Below, piece after piece: positions 7,718 through 28,943 of a stretch of 64,000 nucleotides of DNA. The stretch is from Cunninghamella blakesleeana (lineage: Eukaryota; Mucoromycota; Mucoromycetes; Mucorales; Cunninghamellaceae), in assembly GCA_017871115.1 (NCBI GenBank), contig JAFCIZ010000001.1:4321501-4385500 (forward strand), read 5' to 3'. The translations under genes and the position numbers were made by a program. Each line of letters starts with the position of its first letter. Position 1 is the stretch's first letter. The notes beneath the pieces are model-generated. The model was not told where the DNA came from and made no database searches. It saw only the letters and a list, made by a program, of their open reading frames with translations.

Positions 7718-7814
<97 letters not shown>

Positions 7815-9293: not shown

Positions 9294-9308
9294 AAAAAAA
9301 AAAAAAAA

Positions 9309-9341
<33 letters not shown>

Positions 9342-9461: not shown

Positions 9462-10028
9462 ATGAATTCAAACAACACTACAAGTATTCTTTTTCAAGGT
9501 CTTAATATTCAAGATATATTCTCGGATACAAGTAACTCGGATCCCATGGAAACAAAATTGAATAGTGAAGCTGATATGATGGTGGATCAACTGTTCAATG
9601 AATCTATGATGATATGGCTAAACCAAGATTATACCGTTGATGATCATTTGAAATTTATGATCACAAACAATTTTAATAAGTTTACTGATCATTGTATTGC
9701 TGAACTGGATAACAAATGGCGAAAAGAAAGCTTATTAGATAATACTATTATTCCTGATACTATTACTTACCTTCATAATATTTTTAAGAAGCCAAATACG
9801 AATTCCCAAAAAAGGACTTATTATACAAAAAGAAGACAAGTCTTAGAAGAATTGTTTAAAAATCTTGGTTACGCGGAATTCAAGAAGGAAATTATCAAGA
9901 AGATTTATGCAAACGACCCTTGGACCAATAAAAATGGTGGTGGTCCACCTAAATCTTGGTGGGCGGATGTTGCGCGATGGATTCGCTTGGATCATTTCGA
10001 AGACCGCTCATGGAATTTGATTGGTTAA
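9462..10028 (+). CDS. El2 third ORF, unknown accessory protein
   Basis: A 188-aa protein that corresponds by position and by weak blocks (TYLHNIFKKPN, YYTKRRQVLEELF, KKEIIKKIYANDPW) to the third ORFs of the other elements. It has a longer N-terminus of its own. No membrane segment or signal peptide is present. The last 20 codons lie inside the 3' LTR, and the G-rich polypurine tract GGTGGGCGGA falls within the coding region. Poly(A) runs fill the 168 bp before its ATG. Function unknown. Confidence 0.72.
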   Translation: MNSNNTTSILFQGLNIQDIFSDTSNSDPMETKLNSEADMMVDQLFNESMMIWLNQDYTVDDHLKFMITNNFNKFTDHCIAELDNKWRKESLLDNTIIPDTITYLHNIFKKPNTNSQKRTYYTKRRQVLEELFKNLGYAEFKKEIIKKIYANDPWTNKNGGGPPKSWWADVARWIRLDHFEDRSWNLIG

Positions 10029-10623
10029 AATATTTCATCATTTTTGGTAACAATTTTTCTAACACTTTTTATATCATTTTCGATAACAAATTTGTTAACA
10101 CTTTTGGTGACAAATTTGATGACAAAATCAGTAACACTTTTTATGTCGAATCTGACATAAAATATAAAACCTTATTTTTATTTTTTTATATAAATACTCG
10201 ACAATTTTTATTTTATTTTTGAAAAATCAGTTAATAACAAGTTAATTTTAAATAAAAGAACTTATATTATAACCAATAAGTCTATTAACTCATCTTTTTA
10301 GCTAAAGATTATTTTTATTTTATATTAATATTGTTGATTACTATCCAATATTACTTTATATTATTTTATTATAATAATCGTTGATCTTTATCCGATATTA
10401 TACTTATTTTATTTTAATTTTATTACTTTGTCTATATAATTGTTGATCTTTATCCAATTATATAATTTATTTTATTTTAAACTATCAATCTAAACTAAGT
10501 TGTATCTACTTATAAAACAAGATACTGGTGCTCACTGACAATTAAACTAAACTACAAAGCTATCTACTTTCCAAAACTATAAAAGGAAATTCTACTTTTA
10601 CAACAACCAAAAATTTACACAAC
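9968..10623 (+). repeat. El2 3' LTR, all but the last base
   Basis: Matches 2468-3123. The last base (A) is found at 27860 behind El3. CAAC at 10620-10623 is the left target duplication of El3; the right copy is at 27856-27859. Confidence 0.96.
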
Positions 10624-11349
10624 TGTTAGCAATAATGCTCTTTAATATTTTTCTTTCCTTTTTTGGGCCTGATTTTGTGTTACTGGTGCCATGACTCCAG
10701 AACCATAACTCCAGTGCCATGACACCGGTGCTATGACTCCAGCGTCATGACTCCAGCGTCATGACTCCAAACTTTATTTTATCTCTCCTCACTCTCATAA
10801 ATTTTTATTTTTTTTTTTTAGTATAAATAGAATCATTTCTTTTCTCTTTCTTTCTCTTAAATTGTCAAATTTTTATAATAAATTATTATCTATTAAATAA
10901 TTATTGAACTTGTCCACTTTATAAATCATATTTTATAATTTTAACTTATTTTACTTATAACTCATTCAAGTTACTGAATTTATCTATTTTTTTATAACAA
11001 ACCATATTATTTTATTTTACATTTTTATATTTATTTACTTAAATATTATTCAACCACTCAAATTTAAATTACTTTTTTTAAATTTTCTTATTATATTTAT
11101 TTTATATTGCGGTTACTGAAATCTCTCTTTAATCCTACAATTATATTACACCTTTTAAAATTTTTATTTTTTTATTTCTTTATTTTTACTTTATTTTATT
11201 TTATTTTTTTATTCCTTTATATTAAGTCGTTCTACTTATAAAACAGGAACTGGTGCTCACTGGAATTATATTATACATATCAAATATTACTTATAATACT
11301 CATTCCTCATTTCAAAAAAAATAAATCTTAAACAAAAACCCACACAACA
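10624..11349 (+). repeat. El3 5' LTR (726 bp)
   Basis: TGTTAGC...CACACAACA. U3 has a tandem repeat of about 13 bp (CATGACTCCAGCGT and variants, 10684-10771), followed by TATAAATAG at 10822-10830. The hairpin with PBS-core copy is at 11229-11263. Confidence 0.96.
11229..11263 (+). promoter_or_regulatory. LTR hairpin plus PBS-core copy (El3)
   Basis: GTTCT pairs with GGAAC (one U-G pair), followed by TGGTGCTCACTGG. The second copy is at 18956-18990 in the 3' LTR. Confidence 0.62.
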
Positions 11350-11353
11350 TATT

Positions 11354-11372
11354 TGGTGCTCACTGGCGGGGA
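11354..11372 (+). promoter_or_regulatory. El3 primer-binding site
   Basis: TGGTGCTCACTGGCGGGGA, four bases after the LTR end; identical to El2 and El4. Confidence 0.8.
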
Positions 11373-11475
11373 TCTTTTCTACAAGCTTATACTTTCAATA
11401 ACTACTGGGAAAGATATTCATTCTATATAAACTACTAAAAAACAATCAAGCAAACTGAAAATAATTAATTATAGG

Positions 11476-12555
11476 ATGTCTTACGATTATACCGTGTTGG
11501 CTCAAAAACAACCATTCATGGACTTCAAACCTCAACTTATTCCTTTTTCTGGTGGTGAACGTGAAGACTTCCGTCACTTCAGACAAATTTTAGAAACATT
11601 CTTGGAACTCTCTAATAATACTACAGATAGTAGAAAACTTGCTATATTGAAAATACAAGTTAGAAAATCGGCTAAAACTTATTTAGATTCGCTCAAAGAT
11701 CAACTTCAAGATAATTTAACTTTTGATGTAGCGATGGATGCTTTAGAAGAAAAGTTTGTAACTCCAGAACTACTTGAATCTTATAAGTTAATTCTTAATG
11801 ATATGCGTCAAGGTACTGATGAACATCCACGTGATTTTTATTCAAGGTTACAAGAAGTTGCGCGATTAGCAAAAAAAGATGACAAAGACATTGTATTGAT
11901 GCGTTTTCGTTATGGATTATTACCTGCCATCAGTAAACATTGTATTGAACATGGATCCATTACCGAACAACAATGGTTGAAGTATGCAGAATCATGGTGG
12001 AATGCTAATAAAACTTATGGTATTACTCATAATTATTCTAGTACTGATGTACAATTGAACAATTATCCACTTGGAAATGTAGATTCTTTTACAATGATGG
12101 ATTCTAGTCAACGTGTCATGGATTCTAAATCGTCTATTCATTCTGATCCAGTTGTAACATTATTAGAACGTTTAGTTACTAATATGGAAACCATGGAAAA
12201 GAAAATGAATGATAGAATGGAACAATTGAATCAATCGACAAAGAAACCTCTTAAAAATGATAACCTTACCAGTGATGATATTGTTAAAATAGTACGAAAT
12301 GAACTATCGAAATCTAATAGAAGTAATAACTATAATAATTACCATGGACCTCATAATTATGGACCATATAAAAATAACTATGGATCAAGACGTTACAACA
12401 ATCAACAATATAATCAAGATAATAATTATGACAATAATAATCATAATTATTTATCTAACCAACAACAACATCAACAACAATATTCACAGCAGCAAAATAC
12501 TCAACAATTAAACAATCAACAACAATATAATCAACAAAATCAATCAAAAAACTAG
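11476..12555 (+). CDS. gag: El3 Gag
   Basis: A 359-aa capsid-type protein with a retrotransposon gag domain at about residues 20-175 (FSGGEREDFRHFRQIL, DFYSRLQEVARLAK, LMRFRYGL). It is followed by a short possible coiled stretch and then an Asn/Gln/Tyr-rich tail that is almost pure N/Q repeats at the end. No CCHC zinc knuckle is present. It ends TCA AAA AAC TAG, a slippery site plus stop. The N-terminus (MSYDYT) is shared with El4 but not El2. Confidence 0.92.
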   Translation: MSYDYTVLAQKQPFMDFKPQLIPFSGGEREDFRHFRQILETFLELSNNTTDSRKLAILKIQVRKSAKTYLDSLKDQLQDNLTFDVAMDALEEKFVTPELLESYKLILNDMRQGTDEHPRDFYSRLQEVARLAKKDDKDIVLMRFRYGLLPAISKHCIEHGSITEQQWLKYAESWWNANKTYGITHNYSSTDVQLNNYPLGNVDSFTMMDSSQRVMDSKSSIHSDPVVTLLERLVTNMETMEKKMNDRMEQLNQSTKKPLKNDNLTSDDIVKIVRNELSKSNRSNNYNNYHGPHNYGPYKNNYGSRRYNNQQYNQDNNYDNNNHNYLSNQQQHQQQYSQQQNTQQLNNQQQYNQQNQSKN

Positions 12556-12594
12556 ACAGGGCAATTGCATCTAATGGTCAATTGGAAGTCCCTG
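12546..12594 (+). promoter_or_regulatory. -1 ribosomal frameshift signal, gag/pol (El3)
   Basis: A AAA AAC at 12546-12552, then the TAG stop. CAGGG (12557-12561) pairs with CCCTG (12590-12594). El2 has UAGGG with CCCUA at the same place, a compensatory change. The inner CAATTG pair is at 12562-12567 and 12579-12584. Confidence 0.87.
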
Positions 12595-15500
12595 ATAACA
12601 AATCCATTAACAACAATAATAATAATATTAGCAATAATAATCAAAATAATAACAATAACTTTTATAAAAATAATAAAAACAATATAAAAGATAATAATAC
12701 AAAAAATAATCAACAAAATATGAATGCAATATTTGATCAACATGAATTATGGGATGAAAATGAATATACACATTATGATGATGAAGATCTTTATGCAGCT
12801 AGATTAGACAAACCACCTGCAGTTATACCTTCGTCTTCTAAGACTCCAAAAACAATCAGCAAAGGAAAACAAAAATTAAATATAAATAATACATCTAAAT
12901 TAATTGAAGATATTACTGAACAACAATTATCCCAACAAGATATGATTAATGATTATATTATAGATAATATTATTGAACCAGAAAATAAAACAAAACGAAA
13001 ACGACAACCACCATCTCCAGTGCAAATAAACTATAACATAGTAGATGATGTTTTTAAACAAAAAGCTAATATTGATGTTGGAGATTTAATTAAATCATCA
13101 CATACTTTACGACGTCAATTATTAACTGCATGTAGACCTAAAAGAAAAGCAACAAAAATAAAAGATCAAACTGATACAACTGCAACAGACATACCATTAA
13201 ATACATTAACTAACACAGAACTTACTACAACAGCAGCTTATACAAGTTTAATTATTAATGATAAAAGAATAAGAGGATTGATTGATAGCGGTGCCTCGAA
13301 ATCTTGCATGTCAAAATCAATGATGAAATTATTAGGTTTACAAATTGATGCTCCTTCTACTAATATCTTTATTTTAGGAAATGGTACAAAACAAGCAACT
13401 CTTGGAACAATACATGATGTACAAATACAAGTAACACCTGACATTATAATACCTGTTAATATGGAAGTATTACCTAAATGTCCTGCTCACTTGGTTTTAG
13501 GCAACAATTGGTTAAGTCATGCTCAAGCTCTTCTAAATTTTAGAACAAGTACTCTTAAAGTTTTGTATAAACATAAATCAGCTGAATTACCGATTACATT
13601 TTTAAAAGAAACAGATAAACCTTTAGTTACAATTAAATCAATTAATATTAATTATCAATCTGCAAACTCAACACAAGATAATACAACAAAGGATACTAAC
13701 GAAATAGATAATAATTTTGATACAACAAATAGTGATCTTGAAACAACAACAGACACTGAAACTGATGATGATTGGGAACATGATGAATACTCTGATGAAG
13801 AAAATTATTATATGGAAGATGACGTTAGAATTAATATTGATCGTAATCAAAATGAAAATAGTTTAATTATATCTACTGGTATTCAAGGGATGACCATACC
13901 TCCTCATACAAATTGTCAATTCTATGTAAATCCTTCTATGCATACATCTGAACCTATACTTCTTACTCAAGATGATCAAAATGCTATTGCTAATCCAAAC
14001 GAATTTACATTAAATTTAATTAATAGATCTGATAATGATATTGATTTACCACCTCATCATATAATTAGTGAATATTATAATTTAATGAATAATGATTGTG
14101 CATTAGAAGCTGATGATCTGAAAGGTTATGATATAGTTGAATCACTTGACATGAATGGACTAACAGAAGAATTATTCAATATTGATAATATGGATGATGA
14201 TGAAACACTGGATGAATCTCTTAAAGAAAAACTACAACTTGGAAATATACCTGAAGATTATAAAATTAAATTTTGGAAACTAATAAATCATTATCAAGAT
14301 GTTTTTGACTGGAACAATGATAGGATGGGATGTACTACTATGATTGAACATGATATAATTTTACAAGATAACACAGTACCCATTAGACATCGACCTTATC
14401 GTATGAGTCCAATGGAACAAGAATATTTAAAAAAGGAATTGGATCGACTATGTGAATTGGGAATAATTAAGCCTGCTAATACACCTTATACTGCTCCTAT
14501 TATATTAGTTAAGAAGAAAAATGGCGATTACAGAATGGTAGTAGACTATAGAAAATTAAATGCACAGACTAAAGTAGATGCTTATCCATTACCTAGAATT
14601 GATGATCTTATTGATGAACTTGGTACTTCAAGTATATTTTCAGCTTTGGATCTTAGGTCAGGATTTCACCAAGTACCTCTAAAAAATAATAGTAAAGAAC
14701 TAACTGGATTCGTCACAAAATTTGGCACTTATCAATATGAAATGCTACCAATGGGTTTAGTTAATAGTCCTGCAACATTCCAACGGTTAATAGATATATG
14801 TTTTAGATCAATGATTAATAGATGTCTAGTAGCCTATATAGATGATTTGAATGTACACTCAAAAAGTATAGAACAACATTTAATAGATTTAGAAGAATTA
14901 TTCAAATGTGCTCGTAAAGGTGGACTACTTTTTAATATAGAAAAATGTGTCTTCTTTAAAAATGAATTAAAATTCCTGGGATATATAATAACACAAGATG
15001 GAATAAAGACAGATCCAGCAAAAATAGAAAAAGTAAAAGATTTTCCTCAACCGATAACAGTTAAACAAATCAGAGGATTTATTGGACTAGCTTCTTATTA
15101 CAGGCGATTCATACAAAATTTTGCAGCAATAGCAAGACCTTTACACGATGTTACAAAAACAAAAAATAAATCACCTTGGACTGAAACAACAACAAAATCG
15201 TTTGAACTTTTAAAACAAAAATTAACAGAAGCACCAATTCTTAAAAGGGCTGATTTTAATAAACCATTTATAATTGTATGTGATGCATCTATGGAAGGAT
15301 TAGGCTGTGTACTCTCACAATTGGATGATGACAATCAAGAACATCCAGTAGTATATGCAAGCCGAGGTTTAAAGCAAAGTGAACAAAATTATAGTGCAAC
15401 TAAATTAGAATGTCTGGCTCTCATATGGAGTTTACAAACTTTTAGACCATATCTTCTAGGAAAAAAGTTTACAGTCCTTTCTGATCATTCTCCTTTACGA

Positions 15501-15638
15501 TGGCTAATAAAAGCACCTAAACCTACTGGTATGGTGGCAAGATGGATTACTTACTTGGCTGATTATGATTTTGAAATACAGTATCGTAGTGGAAAAAAAC
15601 AACAGTCTGCAGATTTTCTTTCAAGACTTGGGTATTAA
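12552..15638 (+). CDS. pol: El3 Pol: protease, reverse transcriptase, RNase H (as Gag-Pol)
   Basis: About 1028 residues in the -1 frame. It has an Asn-rich lead, the pre-protease block (KANIDVGDL), a protease with LIDSGASKSCMS, and an acidic linker. The RT has YRMVVDYRKLN, LPMGLVNSPATFQRL, YIDD and FLGYIIT. RNase H has CDAS, TKLECLAL and SDHSPL. It stops at DFLSRLGY. The first residues after the shift (LDRAI, then NGQL) are shared with El2 (LNRAI...GQL) and El4 (LDRAI...NGQL), which supports real translation across the frameshift rather than a TTG start at 12582. Confidence 0.94.
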   Translation, partial: LDRAIASNGQLEVPDNKSINNNNNNISNNNQNNNNNFYKNNKNNIKDNNTKNNQQNMNAIFDQHELWDENEYTHYDDEDLYAARLDKPPAVIPSSSKTPKTISKGKQKLNINNTSKLIEDITEQQLSQQDMINDYIIDNIIEPENKTKRKRQPPSPVQINYNIVDDVFKQKANIDVGDLIKSSHTLRRQLLTACRPKRKATKIKDQTDTTATDIPLNTLTNTELTTTAAYTSLIINDKRIRGLIDSGASKSCMSKSMMKLLGLQIDAPSTNIFILGNGTKQATLGTIHDVQIQVTPDIIIPVNMEVLPKCPAHLVLGNNWLSHAQALLNFRTSTLKVLYKHKSAELPITFLKETDKPLVTIKSININYQSANSTQDNTTKDTNEIDNNFDTTNSDLETTTDTETDDDWEHDEYSDEENYYMEDDVRINIDRNQNENSLIISTGIQGMTIPPHTNCQFYVNPSMHTSEPILLTQDDQNAIANPNEFTLNLINRSDNDIDLPPHHIISEYYNLMNNDCALEADDLKGYDIVESLDMNGLTEELFNIDNMDDDETLDESLKEKLQLGNIPEDYKIKFWKLINHYQDVFDWNNDRMGCTTMIEHDIILQDNTVPIRHRPYRMSPMEQEYLKKELDRLCELGIIKPANTPYTAPIILVKKKNGDYRMVVDYRKLNAQTKVDAYPLPRIDDLIDELGTSSIFSALDLRSGFHQVPLKNNSKELTGFVTKFGTYQYEMLPMGLVNSPATFQRLIDICFRSMINRCLVAYIDDLNVHSKSIEQHLIDLEELFKCARKGGLLFNIEKCVFFKNELKFLGYIITQDGIKTDPAKIEKVKDFPQPITVKQIRGFIGLASYYRRFIQNFAAIARPLHDVTKTKNKSPWTETTTKSFELLKQKLTEAPILKRADFNKPFIIVCDASMEGLGCVLSQLDDDNQEHPVVYASRGLKQSEQNYSATKLECLALIWSLQTFRPYLLGKKFTVLSDHSPLRWLIKAPKPTGMVARWITYLADYDFEIQYRSGKKQQSADFLSRLGY

Positions 15639-15657
15639 AAATAATAATAATAATAAT

Positions 15658-15705
<48 letters not shown>

Positions 15706-16278
15706 ATTATTATAAATTATATTTTTAATATACGTCCAAGGGAAATTGAAGACGATAAAAGCTAGACAAATATTAACATAACAATTTATTATATTACAAT
15801 TATTTTACAAAAGACAACATTCTACAACAATTATTATTATTTCAACAACACATACAACAAAAAGTTATATTTTACAATAGTTATATTATTTATTTACAAC
15901 AGACATTTTATTTATTTACAACAATTATTTTTACTTTATACAACAATTATTTTTACTTTATACAACAATTATTTATATTACAACAAATCTTTTATAACAG
16001 TTATTTAACAAACAATTATTTCAACAACATCAAAAAAAAAAAAAAAAAACACACACACACAAAAAAAAATATATATATCATTATTATTTGTCCAAAGGTG
16101 ATTGAAGACATTAAAAGCTATATCCAAACTAACAAAATACATAATTATTACAACATAGACAACACTTACTAAATTATATTATTAAAATAACTTACAACAA
16201 AGCCTAAACAACAAATCTAACAACAATAATAAAAAACAACAAATATATATAATTATACTTAAAAAAAAAAAAAAAAAA
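15639..16278 (+). other. El3 pol-integrase spacer with two hairpins
   Basis: A 640-bp non-coding gap with a tract of 42 A (15662-15703) and many ACAACA/TTATTT units. It has two spacer hairpins: CGTC/GACG at 15733-15763 and TGTC/GACA at 16089-16119, each followed by A-rich sequence and AAAAGCT. An A-tract directly precedes the integrase ATG. Confidence 0.8.
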
Positions 16279-17598
16279 ATGGACCAACAAACTATAGATA
16301 AATTAAGAGAATATCTTACTACATTAAAAATACCTGAAAACACAACAGCGAAAATGAAAAGATACTTACAACGTAATTCACACAACTTTATCCTACGCAA
16401 TAATAAATTATATAAATTTAATATTTATCATCAAACCTTAAGACAAGTATTAAATAAACAAGAAGCCATAGAAGCACTTTATATGTATCATCAGCATCCT
16501 TTAGGTGGTCATATAGGCTACCACAATACTTTATATAAACTATCTATAAGATACTATTGGGATGGTATGGCCAAAGATATACAAATATATATAAAAAAAT
16601 GTCCAAGATGTCAATCAACTGGTTCAAGAAAATTAAATGAATTCTTATATCCGATACCTGTCAAGTCAAAACCTTTTGAACAATGGGGATTAGATGTTAA
16701 ACATGTTCCTACATCTAAAGGCGGTTATAGATATATTATTGCAGGAATAGATTATTTAACAAAATGGGTAGAAGCGCGTGCGCTACGTTATCAAACTACA
16801 TCCGAAGTTGCTTTGTTTATTTATGAAGAAATAATATGTCGGCATGGTACTCCTCATTTAATTATAACCGACAATGGTAAACCATTTATCAGTGACCTTA
16901 TAAAGAAAGTTTGCTATCAATATAATATCCATCACAACACAATCTCAGTTGGAAATTCTCAAGCCAATGGATTAATTGAAAAATTTAATTCTACACTTGG
17001 GACCATTATAAAAAAGGTAACTTCCACGGAAAAATCAATATGGGACCAATATCTACCATCAGTTCTATTTGCTTATCGTTCAATCAGACAGGCATCTACT
17101 CAACAATCACCATTCTTTTTAACTTACGGATATAATGTTAAAACCCCGTTCGATCAACATGACAAACCTATAGATTTTAATTCTTATAATTTTGATACAC
17201 AATTAAAATTACGTACAAATAAGGAAATTATATCACTCAATCAGATAAGATCGACAGCTGCAAAAATGATAGAAAAATCTCAAGAAAACCAAAAACGGGC
17301 TATTGATAAAAAGGTTTTAAACAATAATAGAGAATGGAAACCAGCATTTAGAATTGGGGATATAGTAACTTTATATACTGGTATAAAATCAAATTCTTGG
17401 TCTGGTAAGATTTCCGATATGTGGCAAGGAAAATATACAATACACCAATCACTTGGAAAGGGTACGTATATAATAAAATCCTTGGATACAACAAGAACAA
17501 AATTAAGAAGAATACACGGAAACAGACTAAAAATATTGCAATTACCAGATGTATATTGGAATAATCATGTAAATAAAACCTATGGATTGGACATATAA
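16279..17598 (+). CDS. El3 integrase, separate ORF
   Basis: A 439-aa protein with its own ATG directly behind an 18-A tract. The H2C2 domain is GGHIGYH with CPRC. The DDE triad is Asp in GLDVKH, Asp in TDNGKPF and Glu in NGLIEKF. The basic C-terminal part ends DVYWNNHVNKTYGLDI. It is in a different frame from pol. All catalytic residues are present. Confidence 0.94.
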   Translation: MDQQTIDKLREYLTTLKIPENTTAKMKRYLQRNSHNFILRNNKLYKFNIYHQTLRQVLNKQEAIEALYMYHQHPLGGHIGYHNTLYKLSIRYYWDGMAKDIQIYIKKCPRCQSTGSRKLNEFLYPIPVKSKPFEQWGLDVKHVPTSKGGYRYIIAGIDYLTKWVEARALRYQTTSEVALFIYEEIICRHGTPHLIITDNGKPFISDLIKKVCYQYNIHHNTISVGNSQANGLIEKFNSTLGTIIKKVTSTEKSIWDQYLPSVLFAYRSIRQASTQQSPFFLTYGYNVKTPFDQHDKPIDFNSYNFDTQLKLRTNKEIISLNQIRSTAAKMIEKSQENQKRAIDKKVLNNNREWKPAFRIGDIVTLYTGIKSNSWSGKISDMWQGKYTIHQSLGKGTYIIKSLDTTRTKLRRIHGNRLKILQLPDVYWNNHVNKTYGLDI

Positions 17599-17913
17599 AC
17601 AAAAAAAAAAGATAATAATGAAATATATAAATATAATTAATAATGAAATTTAAAACATTAATCCACGTATTTACCCGAAAAAGAATTTATATAATAACTA
17701 CATTAAAATAACATACGTAAAAGATAAACATAAAAAAAAAAAAAAAAGGGAAAACCAAAAAGATGATTACAAAAAAAAAAAAAAGAAGTATATTTTTTCA
17801 AACTACGAAAAAAGAAAAAAATATAAAAAAAAAAAAAAAAAAAAAAAAACTTTTTTTACATATTCACATTTTCTTTTGAAAATCTTTTAATAATACAAAA
17901 ATATATTTTTAAA

Positions 17914-18372
17914 ATGGATATGCCATACAATACCGAACGAGTCCCTCTGGATGAAGATTCACTTTATGACGAAACACTACAAGTATTGGCTGACTTTGAC
18001 ACTCTATCACAAGAAGAAACCTACAGGGCATTTATTAAATTTACATATCCTATGTATGTAAATGATCATGAAAAAATAAAAAAGTTGAAAATAAAGATGC
18101 AAACTACCTTCGCTAACCAACTCTGTCCAAGTATTATTTCACTCATTCATACTAAGTTACAAATTCCAAAGACACAAGAAGAACTCATCTTATATAAGAT
18201 AGAAAGATCAAAACTACTTGGAGGATTGCTTTCTGGTATTGGAAATAAGAAGTTTAACAAGATTTTCTGTAGAAGGGTAAATCGTCATGATCACTGGACT
18301 GAAGAAGAATTCGATAAAGCTGGAGGTCCATCTTTTGTTGACGTCGAGGGTGTTAGCAATAATGCTCTTTAA
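17914..18372 (+). CDS. El3 third ORF, unknown accessory protein
   Basis: A 152-aa protein related to the El1 and El4 third ORFs: SLYDETL near the start, FIKFTYPMYVNDH, NKKFNKIF and a GGPS end. No signal peptide or membrane segment. It starts 315 bp after the integrase stop, behind several A-tracts, and its last seven codons are in the 3' LTR. Function unknown. Confidence 0.73.
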   Translation: MDMPYNTERVPLDEDSLYDETLQVLADFDTLSQEETYRAFIKFTYPMYVNDHEKIKKLKIKMQTTFANQLCPSIISLIHTKLQIPKTQEELILYKIERSKLLGGLLSGIGNKKFNKIFCRRVNRHDHWTEEEFDKAGGPSFVDVEGVSNNAL

Positions 18373-19035
18373 TATTTTTCTTTCCTTTTTTGGGCCTGAT
18401 TTTGTGTTACTGGTGCCATGACTCCAGAACCATAACTCCAGTGCCATGACACCGGTGCTATGACTCCAGCGTCATGACTCCAGCGTCATGACTCCAAACT
18501 TTATTTTATCTCTCCTCACTCTCATAAATTTTTATTTTTTTTTTTTAGTATAAATAGAATCATTTCTTTTCTCTTTCTTTCTCTTAAATTGTCAAATTTT
18601 TATAATAAATTATTATCTATTAAATAATTATTGAACTTGTCCACTTTATAAATCATATTTTATAATTTTAACTTATTTTACTTATAACTCATTCAAGTTA
18701 CTGAATTTATCTATTTTTTTATAACAAACCATATTATTTTATTTTACATTTTTATATTTATTTACTTAAATATTATTCAACCACTCAAATTTAAATTACT
18801 TTTTTTAAATTTTCTTATTATATTTATTTTATATTGCGGTTACTGAAATCTCTCTTTAATCCTACAATTATATTACACCTTTTAAAATTTTTATTTTTTT
18901 ATTTCTTTATTTTTACTTTATTTTATTTTATTTTTTTATTCCTTTATATTAAGTCGTTCTACTTATAAAACAGGAACTGGTGCTCACTGGAATTATATTA
19001 TACATATCAAATATTACTTATAATACTCATTCCTC
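18351..19035 (+). repeat. El3 3' LTR, first 685 bp
   Basis: Matches 10624-11308. It is broken after TTCCTC by El4 and continues at 27815-27855. CCTC at 19032-19035 and 27811-27814 is the El4 target duplication. Confidence 0.96.
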
Positions 19036-19813
19036 TGTCGCGCAGGATAATGATCCTACCGGTGTTTAAAAAAATTTTTTAACTTTTGTTTTAATTGGTC
19101 AAGCTCACATCCACAACCGCACATCCACAGACGCACATCCACAACCGCACATCCACAGACGCACATCCACAGACGCACATCCACAGACGCACATCCACAG
19201 ATGTACATCCACAACCGCACATCCTTGACCGTATGACTTCTTTCTCTCTCTCTCAAAAATAAATTTTGTTTTAATATAAATAGGAAAGAATATTTCTCTT
19301 TCTCTTTTGTTTTTTTTTTTTCGTTGTCAAATATAAATGTCAAATTTTTAAGATAATATTTTATATAATAAATATTTTATTTGTCCAAACCAATTTTTAT
19401 TTTTATTTTATTTTAACTTTATACTAATTTCTTAATTGAAATCATATTTATTACTATAACAGATATATTTTTATTTCTTAAGTGAAATCTCTATTTTTAT
19501 TTATATACAACATATATAAACTTTTATATTTTATTTTTTAATTTTATTATTACTTTATTTGATTATTACTCTTTTTATATAATAATCTATTCTCTGACTT
19601 TTAAATTCATTTGCATATACTTTTGAATTTTTTTTAAATATTTTTATTTTTTTTATCCTTTTATTTTTTTTTACTTTTACGTTATATTAAGTCGTTCTAC
19701 TTACAAAACAAGAACTGGTGCTCACTGGAATTATCTTATTTATAATTAATATAAATACAAACTCTCTTATTTTATTTTAACAAAAATAACTCTTACCAAA
19801 AACACACACAACA
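19036..19813 (+). repeat. El4 5' LTR (778 bp)
   Basis: TGTCGCGCAGG...ACACAACA. U3 has about nine 12-14 bp tandem units (CACATCCACAGACG/CACATCCACAACCG, 19107-19222), then TATAAATAG at 19275-19283. The hairpin with PBS-core copy is at 19694-19728. Confidence 0.96.
19694..19728 (+). promoter_or_regulatory. LTR hairpin plus PBS-core copy (El4)
   Basis: GTTCT pairs with AGAAC, followed by TGGTGCTCACTGG. The second copy is at 27691-27725. Confidence 0.62.
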
Positions 19814-19817
19814 TATT

Positions 19818-19836
19818 TGGTGCTCACTGGCGGGGA
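19818..19836 (+). promoter_or_regulatory. El4 primer-binding site
   Basis: TGGTGCTCACTGGCGGGGA, four bases after the LTR end; identical to El2 and El3. Confidence 0.8.
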
Positions 19837-19958
19837 AACTTCAAAAAACTACAGGGTAAACTTTAAAAACTACTAAGGAAAATTTCAAAACTATTACATT
19901 CTGCAAGTACACTCTTTGAAGTTTATTCATTTTAAAACTGAAGATTATCAACCATAAA

Positions 19959-21116
19959 ATGTCTTACGATTATACCGCGTTGGCTCAAGAACAACCTTTG
20001 CTCAAGCTCATTCCTAAACTCATTCCTTTTACTGGAGGTGAGCGTGAAGACTTTCGCCACTTCAGACAAATGCTGGAAACTTATTTAGAACTCACAAATA
20101 CTACAAGTGACTCAAGAAAACTAGCCATATTAAGAACTCAAGTACACAAGTCTGCAAAAACTTATTTGGACTGTCTTAAGGATCAATACAAGGATTCTTT
20201 AACTTTTGATATTGTTATGTCGGCTTTTGAAACAAAATTCGTTACTGCTGAACTTTTAGAATCTTATAAATTAATGCTAAACGAAATGAAACAAGGTACC
20301 GAGGAACATCCAAGGGACTTTTACTCAAGATTACAAGAAGTTGCTAGATTAGCTAAGAAAGAAGATGATGATATTATTCTTATGCGATTCAGATATGGAT
20401 TGAATCCTAATATTAGTAAACATTGCATTGCTCTTGCTTCTATAACTGCTGAACAATGGTTAAAAAATGCTGAAGCTTGGTGGTCAGCTAACAAATCAAT
20501 GAATTATGGAATGATAAACAACCGTACAACTGAACATGAACAATTATTGTACTCTGGTTACGCTATGGATAGAAATACAATTGATAATCCACATAATAAT
20601 ATTAATTCATTTAATGTTATGGAGTTTAGTAAAAACGAATCAGTTACAAATTTATCTTCAAACTCTGACCCAATAGTAAAACTCTTAGAACGATTGGTTC
20701 TTAATGTTGAGACTATGGAAAAGAATGTGAATGACAAAATTGAACAGATTCAGCATACTAAAAAACAAACTAAAAATAATGATAATATGTCTAGTGATGA
20801 TATAATCAAACTTGTACGTTCTGAATTAGCTAAATCTAATGGTCCAATTAATAATTCAAATAATAATAATTATAATAGACATAACAATCAATACAACAAT
20901 AAAAGATTCTATCGTCAACAACAGAAAAATCAAGATTATCATAATAATAATTATTATAATGATAAACAACCACCTCAACCTCAACAATATAATGATTATT
21001 ACAATTCAGCTCAGAACTTATCTAATTCTCAACAAGTTCCAATTCAACAATATCAACAACAGCAATCTCATCAACAATATAATCAACAATATGATAACCA
21101 ACAATCAAAAAACTAG
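19959..21116 (+). CDS. gag: El4 Gag
   Basis: A 385-aa capsid-type protein close to the El3 Gag: TGGEREDFRHFRQMLETYLE, DFYSRLQEVARLAKKE and LMRFRYGLNPNISKHC. The gag domain spans about residues 20-175. The tail from about residue 290 is rich in Asn, Gln and Tyr and lacks a CCHC knuckle. It ends TCA AAA AAC TAG (slippery site, then stop). Confidence 0.92.
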   Translation: MSYDYTALAQEQPLLKLIPKLIPFTGGEREDFRHFRQMLETYLELTNTTSDSRKLAILRTQVHKSAKTYLDCLKDQYKDSLTFDIVMSAFETKFVTAELLESYKLMLNEMKQGTEEHPRDFYSRLQEVARLAKKEDDDIILMRFRYGLNPNISKHCIALASITAEQWLKNAEAWWSANKSMNYGMINNRTTEHEQLLYSGYAMDRNTIDNPHNNINSFNVMEFSKNESVTNLSSNSDPIVKLLERLVLNVETMEKNVNDKIEQIQHTKKQTKNNDNMSSDDIIKLVRSELAKSNGPINNSNNNNYNRHNNQYNNKRFYRQQQKNQDYHNNNYYNDKQPPQPQQYNDYYNSAQNLSNSQQVPIQQYQQQQSHQQYNQQYDNQQSKN

Positions 21117-21154
21117 ATAGGGCAATTGTTAATAATGGTCAATTGGCAGTCCCT
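21107..21154 (+). promoter_or_regulatory. -1 ribosomal frameshift signal, gag/pol (El4)
   Basis: A AAA AAC at 21107-21113 and the TAG stop at 21114-21116. AGGG (21119-21122) pairs with CCCT (21151-21154), extendable by a U-G pair. The inner CAATTG boxes are at 21123-21128 and 21140-21145. Confidence 0.85.
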
Positions 21155-24100
21155 GATAATAAATCCATTAATAAAAATAAACAACAAAATATAAATAACC
21201 AACAAAATATAAATAACCAACAAAATATAAATAACCAACAAAATATAAATAACCAACAAAATATAAATAATCAACATCATATGGATACTCAACAAAAAAT
21301 AAATAATACACAAAAAAATCAACAAAATACAAGTAATATGGATAACCATCAAAACATGAATGTTTTATTAAATAATGAAGAAATAGAAGATGAATATAAT
21401 TATGGACCGCATATAAATAATCATGATTTATATGCTGCAAGAATAGAAAAACCTCCTGTTGTTAAACATCATGAAACATCAGCAAAAACAAAAAGGGTTA
21501 CAGAAAAATCAAGATCAGCTAAAAGAATCAGAATGGATGATGAAATTACAGATAAAGATTTAGAAAAAGAAGAAATGATGGATGATATCGATATCGTTTC
21601 ACTTGATACAACAACTATTCCATCTAATCATAATAAAATATCTGAAAATAATGATAAACCCAAAAGAAAAAGATCACCTCCTGCAACTATTGATATAGAA
21701 TATGATATTATTAAAGATGTATTCAAACAAAAAGCTAACATAGAAGTTGGAGATTTAATAAAATCATCACATCATTTAAGAAAACAACTATTAACAGCAT
21801 GTAAACCTAAAAGAAGATCAGTAAAAAATAAATTGGATCAACAAATAACAGAATCATCACACTTAAATACATTAGATAATGAAGATGTAATAACAACTGC
21901 AGCTTACACTAATTTAATTATAGAAAATAAAAAAGTCAAAGTATTAATTGATAGTGGAGCAGCTAAATCATGTATGTCAAAAGCAATGATGAAGCTATTA
22001 GGATTAGAAATAGATGCACCTTCTACTAACATATTTGTATTAGGAAATGGAACAAAACAACCAACCTTAGGTATTGTACATGATGTTAATATACAAGTAA
22101 CACCTGATATAAATATACCGGTCAATATGGAAGTATTACCCAGATGTCCTGCTCATATAGTTCTTGGTAATAATTGGTTAAGTCATGTACAAGCTCTCCT
22201 TAATTTTAAAACAAGTACTCTAAAGGTTACATACAAACATAAAATAGCTGAACTACCTATTATATTTCTAAAATCAACTGATAGACCACTCATATCAATT
22301 AAATCTATTAATGGAAATTATCAACAAGACAACAAGATTGCAATTAATGAAAAAGAAACTTTAGATGAAAGTGATACTGATATAACAGACCTTGAAACAG
22401 ATGAAGAAGAATGGGAACATGATGAACATTCTGACGAAGATGAAGATGATTATTATAATATTACAACAATAGAAAATAATTTAAAAATACAACAAGATGA
22501 TGATACAACAACTATTACAACAGGAAAAGATGGATTAACTGTACCACCGTATTCAATATGTCAAATACAAATCGATTCTAATAAAGATATACATACAACT
22601 ACAAGCAACATATTAAATGAATCAAAAATAAAAAATAATTATGATCACACAACAATAAATTTAATTAATAAGTCTGATAATAATATGGATCTACCACCTA
22701 ATCAAATCATTAGTGAATTTTTTAATTTAGATGAAAATGGGAATAATGAAGGTATAGAAGGATACAATTTAGTAGACCAGCTTAGTCCATATAAAACATA
22801 TATAGAATTTAATAATATTGAAACAGATATTAAAGAAGACACTTTGGATGAATCTTTTAAAAATAAACTACAACTTGGAAATATACCAATGGAATACAAA
22901 ATAAAATTTTGGAAATTAATACAACAATATCAAGATGTATTCGATTGGAATAATGACAAGATGGGACATACTACTCTTCTTGAACATGAAATAATACTAA
23001 AACAAGATGCAATGCCAATACGACATAGACCTTATCGTATGAGCCCTATGGAACAAGAATATTTAAAATCAGAATTGGATCGTTTATGTGAACTTGGAAT
23101 AATCAAACCAGCTAACACTCCTTATACTGCTCCCATAATTTTAGTCAAAAAGAAGAATGGTGATTATAGAATGGTAGTTGATTATAGAAAGCTTAATGCT
23201 CAAACTAAAGTAGATGCATATCCTTTACCAAGAATAGATGACTTAATTGATGAAATTGGTGTATCAAGAATATTTTCTGCTTTGGATCTTAGATCAGGGT
23301 TCCATCAAGTACCTATGAAAGAAAATAGTAAAGAATTAACTGGTTTTGTCACCAAGTTTGGAACTTATCAATATGAAATGTTACCTATGGGTTTAGTAAA
23401 TAGTCCAGCTACCTTTCAACGTTTAATAGATATATGTTTTAAAACTATGATCAATAGATGCTTAGTAGCATATATTGATGATCTTAATGTACACTCGAAT
23501 AATTTGGATCAACATCTATTGGATTTAGAAGAATTATTTAAATGTGCAAGACTTGGCGGATTACTATTCAATATTGAAAAATGTGTATTCTTTAAAGATG
23601 AATTGAAGTTCCTTGTATATATAATCACTAAAGATGGAATAAAAACTGATCCTACAAAAATAGAAAAAGTAAAGAATTATCCTATACCAACTACAGTCAA
23701 GCAAATAAGAGGATTTATTGGATTAGCTTCTTATTATAGAAGATTTATACAAAACTTTGCAGCTATTGCTAGACCATTACATAATGTCACTAAAACAAAA
23801 AAGAAAATACCTTGGACTGCGGAAACAACAAAATCTTTTGAATTATTAAAACAAAAATTAACTGAAGCACCTATATTGAAAAGGGCTGATTATAACAAAC
23901 CATTTATTATCGTTTGTGATGCTTCTACTGATGGACTTGGAACTATATTATCACAATTGGATGAAGAAGGTCTAGAACATCCTGTTATATATGCCAGTCG
24001 TGGTTTAAAAGAAAGTGAAGCAAATTATAGTGCAACTAAGTTAGAATGTTTGGCTCTTATATGGAGTTTGCAAATTTTTAGACCATATTTACTTGGGAAA

Positions 24101-24274
24101 AAATTTACAGTATTATCAGATCACTCTCCACTCAAATGGCTTATTAAATCACCAAAACCTACTGGTATGGTAGCTCGTTGGATCACTTATTTAGCAGATT
24201 ATGAATTTGAAGTTATATATAGAAGTGGTAAAAAACAACAATCGGCTGATTTTCTCTCAAGACTTGGTTATTAA
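21113..24274 (+). CDS. pol: El4 Pol: protease, reverse transcriptase, RNase H (as Gag-Pol)
   Basis: About 1053 residues in the -1 frame. The lead contains a tandem NNQQNI repeat (five units around 21190-21260). Then come the pre-protease block (KANIEVGDL), a protease with LIDSGAAKSCMS and an acidic linker. The RT has YRMVVDYRKLN, LPMGLVNSPATFQRL and YIDD; RNase H has CDAS, TKLECLAL and SDHSPL. It stops at DFLSRLGY. The conserved Gly after FL in the RT thumb-side motif is Val (GTA), a one-base change from GGA that may harm the enzyme. Confidence 0.93.
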   Translation, partial: LDRAIVNNGQLAVPDNKSINKNKQQNINNQQNINNQQNINNQQNINNQQNINNQHHMDTQQKINNTQKNQQNTSNMDNHQNMNVLLNNEEIEDEYNYGPHINNHDLYAARIEKPPVVKHHETSAKTKRVTEKSRSAKRIRMDDEITDKDLEKEEMMDDIDIVSLDTTTIPSNHNKISENNDKPKRKRSPPATIDIEYDIIKDVFKQKANIEVGDLIKSSHHLRKQLLTACKPKRRSVKNKLDQQITESSHLNTLDNEDVITTAAYTNLIIENKKVKVLIDSGAAKSCMSKAMMKLLGLEIDAPSTNIFVLGNGTKQPTLGIVHDVNIQVTPDINIPVNMEVLPRCPAHIVLGNNWLSHVQALLNFKTSTLKVTYKHKIAELPIIFLKSTDRPLISIKSINGNYQQDNKIAINEKETLDESDTDITDLETDEEEWEHDEHSDEDEDDYYNITTIENNLKIQQDDDTTTITTGKDGLTVPPYSICQIQIDSNKDIHTTTSNILNESKIKNNYDHTTINLINKSDNNMDLPPNQIISEFFNLDENGNNEGIEGYNLVDQLSPYKTYIEFNNIETDIKEDTLDESFKNKLQLGNIPMEYKIKFWKLIQQYQDVFDWNNDKMGHTTLLEHEIILKQDAMPIRHRPYRMSPMEQEYLKSELDRLCELGIIKPANTPYTAPIILVKKKNGDYRMVVDYRKLNAQTKVDAYPLPRIDDLIDEIGVSRIFSALDLRSGFHQVPMKENSKELTGFVTKFGTYQYEMLPMGLVNSPATFQRLIDICFKTMINRCLVAYIDDLNVHSNNLDQHLLDLEELFKCARLGGLLFNIEKCVFFKDELKFLVYIITKDGIKTDPTKIEKVKNYPIPTTVKQIRGFIGLASYYRRFIQNFAAIARPLHNVTKTKKKIPWTAETTKSFELLKQKLTEAPILKRADYNKPFIIVCDASTDGLGTILSQLDEEGLEHPVIYASRGLKESEANYSATKLECLALIWSLQIFRPYLLGKKFTVLSDHSPLKWLIKSPKPTGMVARWITYLADYEFEVIYRSGKKQQSADFLSRLGY

Positions 24275-24910
24275 AGAAAAAAAAAAATACATATATATAT
24301 ATAAAATATAAAAAAAAAAAAAAAGAAATAATAAATGAATAAATATATTTTATACAACAAGCGTCCAAGACGATTGAAGACGTTAAAAGCTAATCCAACA
24401 AATTAATATCAAGATTTTTATTTTTATTATCACAATAGTTTATTTCATACAACAAGCGTCCAAGACGATTGAAGACGTTAAAAGCTAATCTATTAACATA
24501 ACATTATATTATTAACAATTATTTTACATTTATTTTTATTAGTTTTACAACAAATTTTATACAACAATATTATTCAAACATTTTTTATATAATACAACAA
24601 TTATTTTTAATCAACAATATATATATAGTCAAAAAAAAAAAAACAATAACACACAACTTATAAAATTATTTAATACAACAAACGTCCAAAGACGATTGAA
24701 GACGTAAAAAGCTATACTCACACCATACAATCAACATATATATCACTTAATAACAACTTTTTACCTATCTTAATTCAACAAAATCAACAAAAAAAAAAAA
24801 TTATAATATCAGTTATCAAAAAAAAAAAAAAAAAATAAGCTAGTAACACAAAAAAAAAAAATTAGTAAACAATAACATCAACACACCTATCAAAAATTTA
24901 ATTACTTAGT
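24275..24910 (+). other. El4 pol-integrase spacer with three hairpins
   Basis: A 636-bp non-coding gap with three spacer hairpins at 24362-24391, 24457-24486 and 24683-24713. All have CGTC/GACG stems and a CAA...TTG inner pair with an AA bulge, followed by AAAAGCT. The first two copies and their flanks (ACAACAAGCGTCC...AAAGCTAATC) are near-identical direct repeats. Many A-tracts precede the integrase ATG at 24911. Confidence 0.82.
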
Positions 24911-26230
24911 ATGGATCAACAATTAATAGATAATATGAAGCAATATTTAGTCACTTTAAAACTACCAAACAACATTACACCAAAAGAAAAAAGATATATA
25001 CAACGAAATTCACATAACTTTGTGGTACGATCAAATCAATTATATAAATATAATATAGAACATCAAACATTAAGAAAAGTCCTAAATAAAACACAAGCTA
25101 TGGAAGTTTTATTTATGTGTCACCAACATCCTTTAGGAGGTCACCTCGGTTATCATAATACTTTATATAAGGTATCAACTAGATATTATTGGAATGCTAT
25201 GGCTAAAGATATACAAGAATATGTTAAAAAATGTAAAAGATGTCAAACTACTGGACCTAAGAAATTAAACGAATTTTTATATCCTGTTCCTGTGAAATCA
25301 AAACCTTTCGAACAATGGGGAATTGATGTCAAGCATGTTCCAACGTCTAAAAGTGGATATCGTTACGTTATAGCCGCTATTGACTATCTTACTAAATGGG
25401 TGGAGGCACGAGCACTTAAGTATCAATCAACTTCGGAAATTGCTTTATTTATATATGAAGAAATTATATGTAGGCATGGTACGCCTCATCTTATTATATC
25501 GGATAATGGTACTCCTTTTATTAGTGACTTAATCAATAAAGTTTGTAGACAATATAATATTCATCATAATACTATTACTGTTGGAAATTCTCAAGCTAAT
25601 GGATTAATAGAAAGATTTAATTCAACACTTGGATCAATTATCAAAAAGATTGCAACAACAGAAAAGGGATTATGGGATCAATATTTACCATCTGTATTAT
25701 TTTCCTATCGCACAATAAAACAAAATTCAACAAAACAATCTCCATTTTATTTAACATATGGTTACATTCCAAAGACTCCTTTTGATCATATAGACACAAT
25801 AGTAGATTTTAACTCTTATAACTTTGAAAATCAGATAATGCTCAGAACAAAAAAGGAAATTACTGCACTAAATCTAATAAGACAACAATCAGCAGAAAAA
25901 ATCAAAAGGTCGCAAGAAAACCAGAAAAAGGCAATAGATAAGAAAGTAAATAAACGAGACCGCGAATGGAAACCAGCTTTTAGAATTGGTGAAATAGTAA
26001 CCTTATATACAGGAATACAATCAAACTCATGGTCAGGTAAAATATCGGATATGTGGCAAGGAAGGTATACTATACATCAATCTTTAGGAAAAGGTACCTA
26101 TTTGATTAAATCTCTAGACTCTAATAACATAAGAATAAAGCGTGTACATGGAAACCGACTCAAATTATTACAAATGCCAGATGTATATTGGAATACACAT
26201 GTATCTAAAACTTATGGAATTGATCTATAA
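24911..26230 (+). CDS. El4 integrase, separate ORF
   Basis: A 439-aa protein. It has H2C2 (GGHLGYH with CKRC); the DDE core with Asp in GIDVKH, Asp in SDNGTPF and Glu in NGLIERF; and a C-terminal basic GPY/F-like part ending NTHVSKTYGIDL. It is nearly the same protein as the El1 integrase, of which only the downstream part is in the window. All catalytic residues are kept. Confidence 0.94.
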   Translation: MDQQLIDNMKQYLVTLKLPNNITPKEKRYIQRNSHNFVVRSNQLYKYNIEHQTLRKVLNKTQAMEVLFMCHQHPLGGHLGYHNTLYKVSTRYYWNAMAKDIQEYVKKCKRCQTTGPKKLNEFLYPVPVKSKPFEQWGIDVKHVPTSKSGYRYVIAAIDYLTKWVEARALKYQSTSEIALFIYEEIICRHGTPHLIISDNGTPFISDLINKVCRQYNIHHNTITVGNSQANGLIERFNSTLGSIIKKIATTEKGLWDQYLPSVLFSYRTIKQNSTKQSPFYLTYGYIPKTPFDHIDTIVDFNSYNFENQIMLRTKKEITALNLIRQQSAEKIKRSQENQKKAIDKKVNKRDREWKPAFRIGEIVTLYTGIQSNSWSGKISDMWQGRYTIHQSLGKGTYLIKSLDSNNIRIKRVHGNRLKLLQMPDVYWNTHVSKTYGIDL

Positions 26231-26535
26231 AAAAAAAAAAAAAATTTACATATAAATAAAATAAAATAAAATAAGATAAAAGAAAATTTTTTTTTAAAAA
26301 AAAAAAAAAAAACAAATACAATCAAAAAAAAAAAAATAACAGCAATAATAATAATAAATAAATAAATAAAAATAATTATAAAGATAAAGAAATATTTAGA
26401 TAGATATATATGATAATTACAAAAAAAAAATTTATATAAATATCAAAAAAAAAAAATTTTATTTCAAAAAAAAAAAAATATTTACAATATAAACATATCT
26501 CACTTATTTTTATACAATTCAAGCATTATACAAGA

Positions 26536-27066
26536 ATGAATCTACCTTTTAATTTTAACAGACCTTCTGTGGATCAAGATCCCATCTATGAAGAAGTTCT
26601 TGCAGCCTTTACAGAAAATCTCTCGGAAATTGAACTTTTGAAACTCTTTATCAAGTATTCCTACCATATGTATGTAGATGATCACCATCGTGTAATTGAA
26701 ATACAAAAGAGTATGCAAGAAAATTATGCCAAGCATATTTTACCTAACGTGGTCAAGCTTCTTCATACATCCTTGGGAAAACCAACCAATCTTGGTGAAT
26801 TAATTAATTATCGACGTGAACGTATGGAATTACTCAATGAGTTGTTAAGTCCTTTGGCTAAACCTCGTTTTAACCAAGTTTTTTATAAAAAATTACGTAA
26901 AGAAGATCCTTGGGGAAAGGATACTATTCTCATGGAACAAGAAGAAAATGATGTGGAAGTTCCTATGACTTTTGTCGGTGTCGCTAATGACAATAATAAC
27001 GATGGAGGTCCATCTTCTCCTGGTGGTGAGGGTGTCGCGCAGGATAATGATCCTACCGGTGTTTAA
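26536..27066 (+). CDS. El4 third ORF, unknown accessory protein
   Basis: A 176-aa protein with strong similarity to the El1 copy: PSVDQDPIYEEVLAAF, FIKYSYHMYVDDH, YRRERMELLNELL, DPWGKD and GGPSSPGGEGVAQ. Synonymous and conservative changes dominate between the two, which suggests that the protein is under selection. It starts 305 bp after the integrase stop. Its last codons read into the LTR. No membrane segment, so it is not an envelope protein. Function unknown. Confidence 0.77.
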   Translation: MNLPFNFNRPSVDQDPIYEEVLAAFTENLSEIELLKLFIKYSYHMYVDDHHRVIEIQKSMQENYAKHILPNVVKLLHTSLGKPTNLGELINYRRERMELLNELLSPLAKPRFNQVFYKKLRKEDPWGKDTILMEQEENDVEVPMTFVGVANDNNNDGGPSSPGGEGVAQDNDPTGV

Positions 27067-27810
27067 AAAAATTTTTTAACTTTTGTTTTAATTGGTCAAG
27101 CTCACATCCACAACCGCACATCCACAGACGCACATCCACAACCGCACATCCACAGACGCACATCCACAGACGCACATCCACAGACGCACATCCACAGATG
27201 TACATCCACAACCGCACATCCTTGACCGTATGACTTCTTTCTCTCTCTCTCAAAAATAAATTTTGTTTTAATATAAATAGGAAAGAATATTTCTCTTTCT
27301 CTTTTGTTTTTTTTTTTTCGTTGTCAAATATAAATGTCAAATTTTTAAGATAATATTTTATATAATAAATATTTTATTTGTCCAAACCAATTTTTATTTT
27401 TATTTTATTTTAACTTTATACTAATTTCTTAATTGAAATCATATTTATTACTATAACAGATATATTTTTATTTCTTAAGTGAAATCTCTATTTTTATTTA
27501 TATACAACATATATAAACTTTTATATTTTATTTTTTAATTTTATTATTACTTTATTTGATTATTACTCTTTTTATATAATAATCTATTCTCTGACTTTTA
27601 AATTCATTTGCATATACTTTTGAATTTTTTTTAAATATTTTTATTTTTTTTATCCTTTTATTTTTTTTTACTTTTACGTTATATTAAGTCGTTCTACTTA
27701 CAAAACAAGAACTGGTGCTCACTGGAATTATCTTATTTATAATTAATATAAATACAAACTCTCTTATTTTATTTTAACAAAAATAACTCTTACCAAAAAC
27801 ACACACAACA
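27033..27810 (+). repeat. El4 3' LTR (778 bp)
   Basis: Same length as 19036-19813 and no difference seen. It is preceded by the G-rich tract GGTGGTGAGGG and followed by CCTC (27811-27814). Confidence 0.97.
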
Positions 27811-27882
27811 CCTCATTTCAAAAAAAATAAATCTTAAACAAAAACCCACACAACACAACACTTATCAAAAACACACACATCA
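27811..27882 (+). repeat. Stacked LTR ends of El3, El2 and El0
   Basis: This 72-bp junction holds, in order: CCTC (El4 duplication), the last 41 bp of the El3 LTR (27815-27855), CAAC (El3 duplication, 27856-27859), the last base of the El2 LTR (27860), CTTA (El2 duplication, 27861-27864) and the end of the El0 LTR (27865-27882, ends ATCA). Twenty bases of ordinary sequence then lead to the U6 terminator. Confidence 0.92.
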
Positions 27883-27902
27883 TTTTCGTTATTGTAAGTT
27901 TT

Positions 27903-27968
27903 AAAAAAAAAAGTTGCTCCGTAGAGCGTTCCATCTCAGAAGTTTAGTGTCATCCTTGTGCAGGGGCC

Positions 27969-28000
<32 letters not shown>

Positions 28001-28032
28001 ATGAGTGTCATACAACATAAAGTTGCAGACAC
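27903..28032 (-). ncRNA. U6: U6 spliceosomal snRNA
   Basis: On the minus strand the conserved core is present: GGAACGATACAGAGAAG (containing the ACAGAGA box), GATTAGC (AGC triad) and the internal stem-loop ATGGCCCCTGCACAAGGATG. The 5' end forms a GTGTC/GACAC stem. The 3' tail is unusual, with a small GCTC-TACG-GAGC hairpin, and ends in a run of ten T (A at 27903-27912 on the plus strand), a Pol III terminator. No intron is present. U6 is the catalytic RNA of the spliceosome, in keeping with the intron-rich genes nearby. Confidence 0.96.
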
Positions 28033-28364: not shown

Positions 28365-28628
28365 AATTTTTATTTTATTTTTGAAAAATCAGTTGATAAA
28401 AATCAGTTTATACATGATAAAAAATACTTGATTAATAATAAATACTTTTTCTAAAAAGTTCTATTAACTCACCCTTTTAACTAAAGATTATATTTATTTT
28501 ATTCTAATGTTGTTGGTTATTATCTATTATGAATTTATTTTATTTTATTATAATAATCGTTGATCTTTATCCGATATTATATTATATTTTTTCTTTTATT
28601 TATATAGTTGATGATCTTTATCCAATTA
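28365..28628 (+). repeat. Diverged El2-type LTR fragment upstream of U6
   Basis: About 260 bp that line up with the middle of the El2 LTR (about 2704-2960): TTTTATTTTTGAAAAATCAG, CTATTAACTCA, TAATAATCGTTGATCTTTAT and GATCTTTATCCAATTA. It has many differences and lacks the LTR ends, so it is an old remnant of the same family on the other side of U6. It is in the same orientation as El1-El4. Confidence 0.8.
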
Positions 28629-28943
28629 AATAATAAAATAGATCCCTTTTTAATATACCCAGCAAGTAATAAAAGTAAAATGGAACAAAACAAAGTTAGC
28701 TTATTACAGCATTGATTTATATATAAAAGTGGTTTAAGGCAATATATATATAATAAAACAAATAACATATAAAAATATATGTGATAATATACAAATATGA
28801 ATAAATATTTCGGTATGCATATATAAAACCAATTTATTTTTTTATAAAAAAGAAGATATCGTGTATAAATTACAAATAAATATACTAAAAACAGCAATAA
28901 TAAATAATAAAAATTAATATAAAGATTAAAAAAAAGTAAAAAA

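Follow-up and report, generated by a model that had tools for sequence, protein, structure and literature searches.

The window, as we call the whole 64-kb stretch of Cunninghamella blakesleeana DNA analyzed here (C1:4321501-4385500 of a 31.9-Mb assembly in 12 contigs), carries a U6 snRNA gene on its minus strand at 27908-28021 (Rfam RF00026, 81.6 bits), with the T-tract that forms its 3' end at 27903-27912. Adjoining the gene is a nest of three complete Ty3/gypsy-type elements and two older remnants, all on the plus strand, an arrangement that points their 3' LTRs at the 3' end of the gene. El4 (type C; 19036-27810) has identical LTRs at 19036-19813 and 27033-27810 and is flanked by the target duplication CCTC (19032-19035 and 27811-27814). 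It interrupts the 3' LTR of El3 (type B; 10624-19035), whose 5' LTR lies at 10624-11349 and whose 3' LTR lies at 18351-19035 with its remaining end at 27815-27855; the duplication of El3 is CAAC (10620-10623 and 27856-27859). El2 (type A; 2468-10623) has LTRs at 2468-3124 and at 9968-10623 plus base 27860, and the duplication CTTA (2464-2467 and 27861-27864). The LTR pairs of these three elements match at 100% over 657, 685, and 778 bp, the 685-bp comparison being that of El3, whose second copy is cut and whose full LTR length is 726 bp. El1 is present by its 3' part only (1-2412; 3' LTR about 1678-2412) and starts to the left of the window, where a PBS at C1:4316198 is compatible with it. El0 is the U5 end of an old LTR (27865-27882), whose other part was placed by eye at about 2429-2463.

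An earlier note on this DNA had put the five insertions at 20 bp (El0), 38 bp (El2), 43 bp (El3), 88 bp (El4), and, after subtraction of later insertions, 89 bp (El1) from the U6 T-tract, all pointing the same way. Base-by-base rereading returned the same five values, and the boundaries bore out the single orientation. The accompanying claim that the target is the 3' side of U6 describes these five insertions, but an LTR piece resembling type A (28365-28634, plus strand; 80% identity) lies upstream of the gene, 344 bp from it, and is an exception in the window to the 3'-side rule. Eight bases of another LTR terminus beside El1, at about 2417-2424 as read by eye, may represent a sixth insertion.

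The elements have the LTR ends (TGT..ACA) and 4-bp target duplications of Ty3/gypsy elements, together with the Ty3/gypsy order of domains: protease, RT, RNase H, and then integrase. In El3, a long plus-strand ORF (12582-15638) contains aspartyl protease, RVT_1, and RNase H domains (Pfam), and the next ORF, in El3 (16279-17598, plus strand) as in El4, contains Integrase_H2C2 and rve; the equivalents of this integrase ORF lie at 24911-26230, 7980-9293, and 3-1022. The integrase thus has an ORF of its own, ∼0.6 kb past the RT-RNase H ORF, and there are runs of A in the gap (15639-16278 and its equivalents). A Pfam search of the ORFs in the Gag position gave no match above the cut-off. Following the 5' LTR is a PBS that is complementary, by eye, to the 3' end of tRNA-Ile(AAU) (..CGCCAGTGAGCA plus CCA); it has 89 exact copies in the genome and 0 in a reversed control. 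The window LTRs also contain CTGGTGCTCACTGG, for example near 19714-19730, a second match by eye to the tRNA-Ile 3' end, which resembles a primer end that was copied and then captured.

Among integrases of known structure, that of Ty3 is the closest (E 3.4e-26), and the named relatives among the best 120 of 210 matches include proteins from Rhizopus, Absidia, Circinella, and Rhizophagus. The alignment to the Ty3 chain ends 98 residues short of the end of that chain, and the structure model has a beta domain up to residue 419 with a low-confidence tail after it; as modeled, the integrase of the window family is predicted to end after an SH3-like C-terminal domain (CTD), without a chromodomain. 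El1 to El4 also carry a fourth small ORF ahead of the 3' LTR (ORF4; in El4 at 26536-27066, plus strand, extending into the 3' LTR, with equivalents at 17914-18372, 9462-10028, and 1205-1711). The ORF4 frame is open in all four and also in three or more divergent copies, whose identity to the El4 version falls as low as 20%; in other copies it is truncated or broken. It has two database relatives, both named Cunninghamella echinulata; Pfam gave no family above the cut-off, and comparison with PDB sequences gave nothing convincing (best E 0.02, to a potassium channel). The model of ORF4 is helical and confident at about residues 31-130 (mean pLDDT 70, nine sequences), and the product is probably a fast-evolving, helical protein.

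We read 400 bp on each side of all 65 members of a set of Pol III genes (63 tRNA and two U6) picked by covariance model independently of LTRs; the tRNA list is incomplete, with 63 of 1487 candidates scored. With up to three substitutions allowed, a U5 terminus facing the gene was found downstream of 54 of the 65 genes, for a total of 96 termini and with two or more at 30 genes. No U5 terminus lay reversed downstream, or upstream in any sense, in these flanks, and the shuffled-flank control stood at 0.23%. LTR start sequences (up to five substitutions) were added to the search, since a reversed copy would put its U5 terminus more than 400 bp away, and none was found within 400 bp on either side of the 65 genes. 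BLAST at 60 bp and 78% identity gave the downstream-facing arrangement in 57 of 65 flanks and 0 in other positions. At a permissive setting (E 1e-4), the LTR library matched upstream flanks of 49 of the 65 genes in both orientations (15 and 34) and downstream flanks of 61 (59 facing, two reversed); we took the matches seen only at this setting for AT-rich noise, as only the 57 downstream-facing ones survive the stricter thresholds. Judged by position, one of the reversed pair is a 5' LTR, belonging to an element (PBS C1:2807305) that faces the next tRNA-Lys gene. By position lists, a listed LTR lies within 1 kb downstream of 20 genes, convergent in 20 out of 20, versus 0.3 expected at random; upstream, this holds for one gene of the 65, with an LTR 0.8 kb off that belongs to the stack of a neighboring tRNA-Pro.

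The genome-wide comparison of LTR position and orientation proposed in the earlier note therefore returns a downstream, one-orientation enrichment, and the flank counts support its view that the clustering at U6 is beyond chance. The five-copy pile-up at U6 is one case of a genome-wide habit. The note had named a sharp peak near the 3' ends of Pol III genes as support; a peak is present, but it is broad and not base-precise, with the 96 termini at a median of 141 bp from the gene 3' end (middle half 90-192 bp; 5%-95% range 52-309 bp) and no 10-11 bp periodicity in these distances. A downstream terminus occurs in 22 of the 23 gene classes sampled (22 anticodons and U6); the exception is Val-cac, where a decayed LTR is visible by eye. 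Two tRNA-Met genes stand face to face (C5:3340852 and C5:3340984), with a 59-bp spacer that has no LTR. Behind the second U6 gene (C7:1274580-1274688), U5 termini lie at 42 and 64 bp, measured from the annotated 3' end, with a further one at 7 bp by eye, and two PBS copies (C7:1258286 and 1267052) are directed at the gene. As this gene was not selected for LTRs, it is an independent repeat of the U6 stack.

We also started from the elements. Three LTR queries, with 40 candidates scored per query, returned at least 270 matches in at least 69 clusters. For 38 of the 69 listed clusters, a known Pol III gene is found no more than 1 kb from the 3' end, and the nearest gene is convergent in all 38. 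A script assigned the other 31 to those running into a PBS (14), into another LTR (nine), or neither (eight); two of the 14 are by eye a PBS-like motif inside an LTR, and C5:2333 is doubtful among the nine. Among the eight, one reaches an LTR further on, three have a common 69-bp unit, and four (C1:4886143, C2:1357034, C5:2880965, and C7:2986761), with neither a Pol III gene nor the common unit, are unexplained. Rfam scans of the exception loci gave no known RNA gene: One returned the U6 of locus L002 as its sole match, and a second returned six matches, all far under gathering scores.

The 69-bp unit (C2:3335, C2:1457955, and C3:994255) has A-box-like, T9, and B-box-like parts. It adjoins the window LTR type at these three places and an LTR of the upstream type, described below, at two of them. 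Its core has nine copies in the genome, eight of them exact, and 0 in the control; it may be a Pol III or TFIIIC unit that has escaped annotation.

With the PBS as the marker, 35 of 59 outermost elements point toward a convergent gene or B box at a distance of 5-13 kb, seven have an oppositely oriented one ahead, and a single element has a convergent one behind it; these counts rest on 86 genes, 21 of them first met in stretches chosen for their LTRs, and on a B-box list (C1-C3) that includes chance matches (217 in the genome vs. 127 in the reversed control). No convergent known gene lies ahead of 24 of the 59 elements. Six of these 24 were examined, and the LTR end was readable in three: In two, a convergent tRNA follows (157 and 108 bp away), and the third (L138) has no gene within 700 bp.

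The upstream flanks hold other repeats. At 21 of the 65 genes, a repeat that ends within 30 bp upstream of the gene is common to a gene for another amino acid, with six families represented; BLAST places the ends 0-19 bp from the gene, for the most part at 8-12 bp. At least six such families, other than that of the window, have a fixed orientation and end ∼8-12 bp before the start of tRNA genes that serve different amino acids (e.g., C2:2796872-2797403, or L007:2502-3033). Copies of one family (query 532 bp) are often paired ∼5 kb apart, like LTRs, and among 25 long copies taken from 60 matches, eight end no more than 15 bp from the start of a known tRNA, eight out of eight on the strand of the gene. 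Pieces resembling an integrase C terminus lie upstream of two tRNA genes, in the sense of the gene, with Pfam scores below the cut-off. From their repeat content, the two flanks of Pol III genes seem to be divided between lineages. Motifs common across isoacceptors occur in the 3' trailers of tRNA genes, at 15-55 bp from the gene end. One, AAGGTTYAATRGTTTAGCC, occurs at 13 places, at least 11 of them by eye directly behind a tRNA gene or B box, and another, GGTGCSCRTAAG, at 17 places, at least 12 of them so placed by eye; both have 0 occurrences in the control.

Could a few insertions have been multiplied by tandem or segmental duplication, or by gene conversion? Near-duplicates with matching downstream flanks, as such copying would produce, do occur among three Val-cac genes and between two Leu-taa genes. 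However, in 13 out of 13 elements with both ends readable, we found a 4-bp duplication belonging to that element, and stacks vary between genes in order, family, and distance. We consider this explanation so improbable as to carry almost no weight. Position, orientation, independence of the insertions, and generality over 22 of 23 gene classes can be read directly from the genome.

The same duplications bear on a preference of the integrase for LTR U5 sequence, under which nesting beside U6 and tRNA genes would follow from a chance first insertion. Many insertions do sit in older U5 ends. Yet the 13 elements have 11 different duplication words (by eye), which indicates that the place of insertion is not set by a DNA word, and at several genes, the first insertion fell in ordinary flank DNA that is not LTR. 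U5 termini also stand behind 54 of 65 genes that were selected regardless of LTRs. Moreover, 5' LTRs with the same U5, kilobases away, have undamaged U5 ends in 15 of 16 cases, in a sample biased to intact LTRs. At 38 of the 89 PBS copies, a listed LTR piece of at least 300 bp ends at the PBS, and at none is there solely a shorter piece. The bare U5-end preference that the earlier note had set beside Pol III targeting is disfavored by the varied duplications, the non-LTR first insertions, and the intact 5' LTRs, and we find it extremely unlikely; nearness to the gene, and not U5 sequence, seems to govern insertion.

A further alternative is that insertion is random or weakly biased, and that selection in a compact genome removes all copies except those lying behind Pol III genes in a single orientation. 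The positions we read are those of fossils, and insertions elsewhere between genes may be harmful. On the other hand, the window elements with identical LTRs are already in place, 10 of 13 LTR pairs scored are identical, orientation is 96 to 0, and the window family is absent from the very upstream flanks where other families sit. Selection as the whole explanation is thus very unlikely, and selection on fossil positions may have sharpened the pattern.

We therefore favor, with high confidence, a reading in which these are Ty3/gypsy LTR retrotransposons brought to the 3' side of Pol III genes with a fixed polarity, their stacks built by nesting. The integration complex would be recruited downstream of genes transcribed by Pol III (tRNA and U6), where the intasome would dock in one polarity, its element ending up with U5 toward the gene. 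Most new copies would land ∼50-200 bp past the gene, often within the U5 end of an earlier copy, and repeated landing in earlier copies would give rise to nested stacks. We infer docking onto a bound component of the Pol III machinery (TFIIIC, TFIIIB, or Pol III) and contact through the integrase, perhaps jointly with ORF4 or Gag; ORF4 is a candidate tether only.

Several known systems invite comparison, described here from the available parts of the reports. The precedents named in the earlier note omitted the downstream Skipper-2 and TRE3 and the tRNA co-localization of Ty3/gypsy elements in Rhizopus. Ty3 of Saccharomyces cerevisiae has Pol III targets and inserts 0-20 bp upstream of them (PMC8632968, PMC7175516, PMC5911963); its CTD and chromodomain dock on TFIIIB near the start site, and its duplication is 5 bp (PMC8632968). 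The window family shares the targeting of Pol III genes with Ty3, whose integrase, the closest of known structure, was solved with TFIIIB. It differs in lying on the 3' side, mostly at 50-300 bp, with a 4-bp duplication and an integrase that is predicted to lack the chromodomain, and none of the 65 genes has a window-family terminus or start within 400 bp upstream. As the modeled integrase stops after the CTD, without a Ty3-type chromodomain, the tether probably differs from that of Ty3.

Among dictyostelids, the Ty3/gypsy element Skipper-2 inserts ∼7-136 bp downstream of tRNA genes and has a diverged chromodomain (PMC5006619, PMC5911963). Integration downstream of tRNA genes is common to Skipper-2 and the window family; the latter is set apart by its fungal host, single orientation, U6 targets, and canonical PBS, and its modeled integrase ends at the SH3-like domain, whereas a chromodomain follows the integrase core in Skipper-2. 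TRE3 of Dictyostelium, a non-LTR element, inserts 40-150 bp downstream of tRNA genes in a fixed orientation (PMC5911963), which is the transcriptional orientation of the tRNA gene, whereas the LTR elements of the window family are convergent with it. Closest to our host, Ty3/gypsy elements of Rhizopus oryzae were reported in 2009 to have a strong insertion-site preference and frequent co-localization with tRNA genes (PMC2699053). Rhizopus also belongs to the Mucorales, and named Rhizopus relatives of the window integrase are ∼49%-57% identical to it; the available text of that report gives no side, distance, orientation, or U6 (PMC2699053).

We put forward more tentatively, as possible but short of probable, a wider arrangement in which the flanks of Pol III genes are split between lineages, with upstream families at ∼8-12 bp and downstream ones at ∼50-300 bp, U5 facing the gene where readable. 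The downstream docking would be chromodomain-free and the tether new, possibly the integrase CTD or ORF4.

Downstream Pol III targeting by LTR elements is described, in the available text of one report, as confined to dictyostelids (PMC5911963). Our literature search by title and abstract, with most subscription papers outside its coverage, turned up no fungal case of targeting confined to the 3' side and to one orientation. A fungal downstream case with fixed polarity and without the Ty3 chromodomain suggests a separate mode of docking. The dozens of stacks in this genome, which preserve the order of insertion at each gene, offer natural material for studying intasome recognition of Pol III 3' flanks, and the LTRs that bracket such sites can flag unannotated Pol III units.
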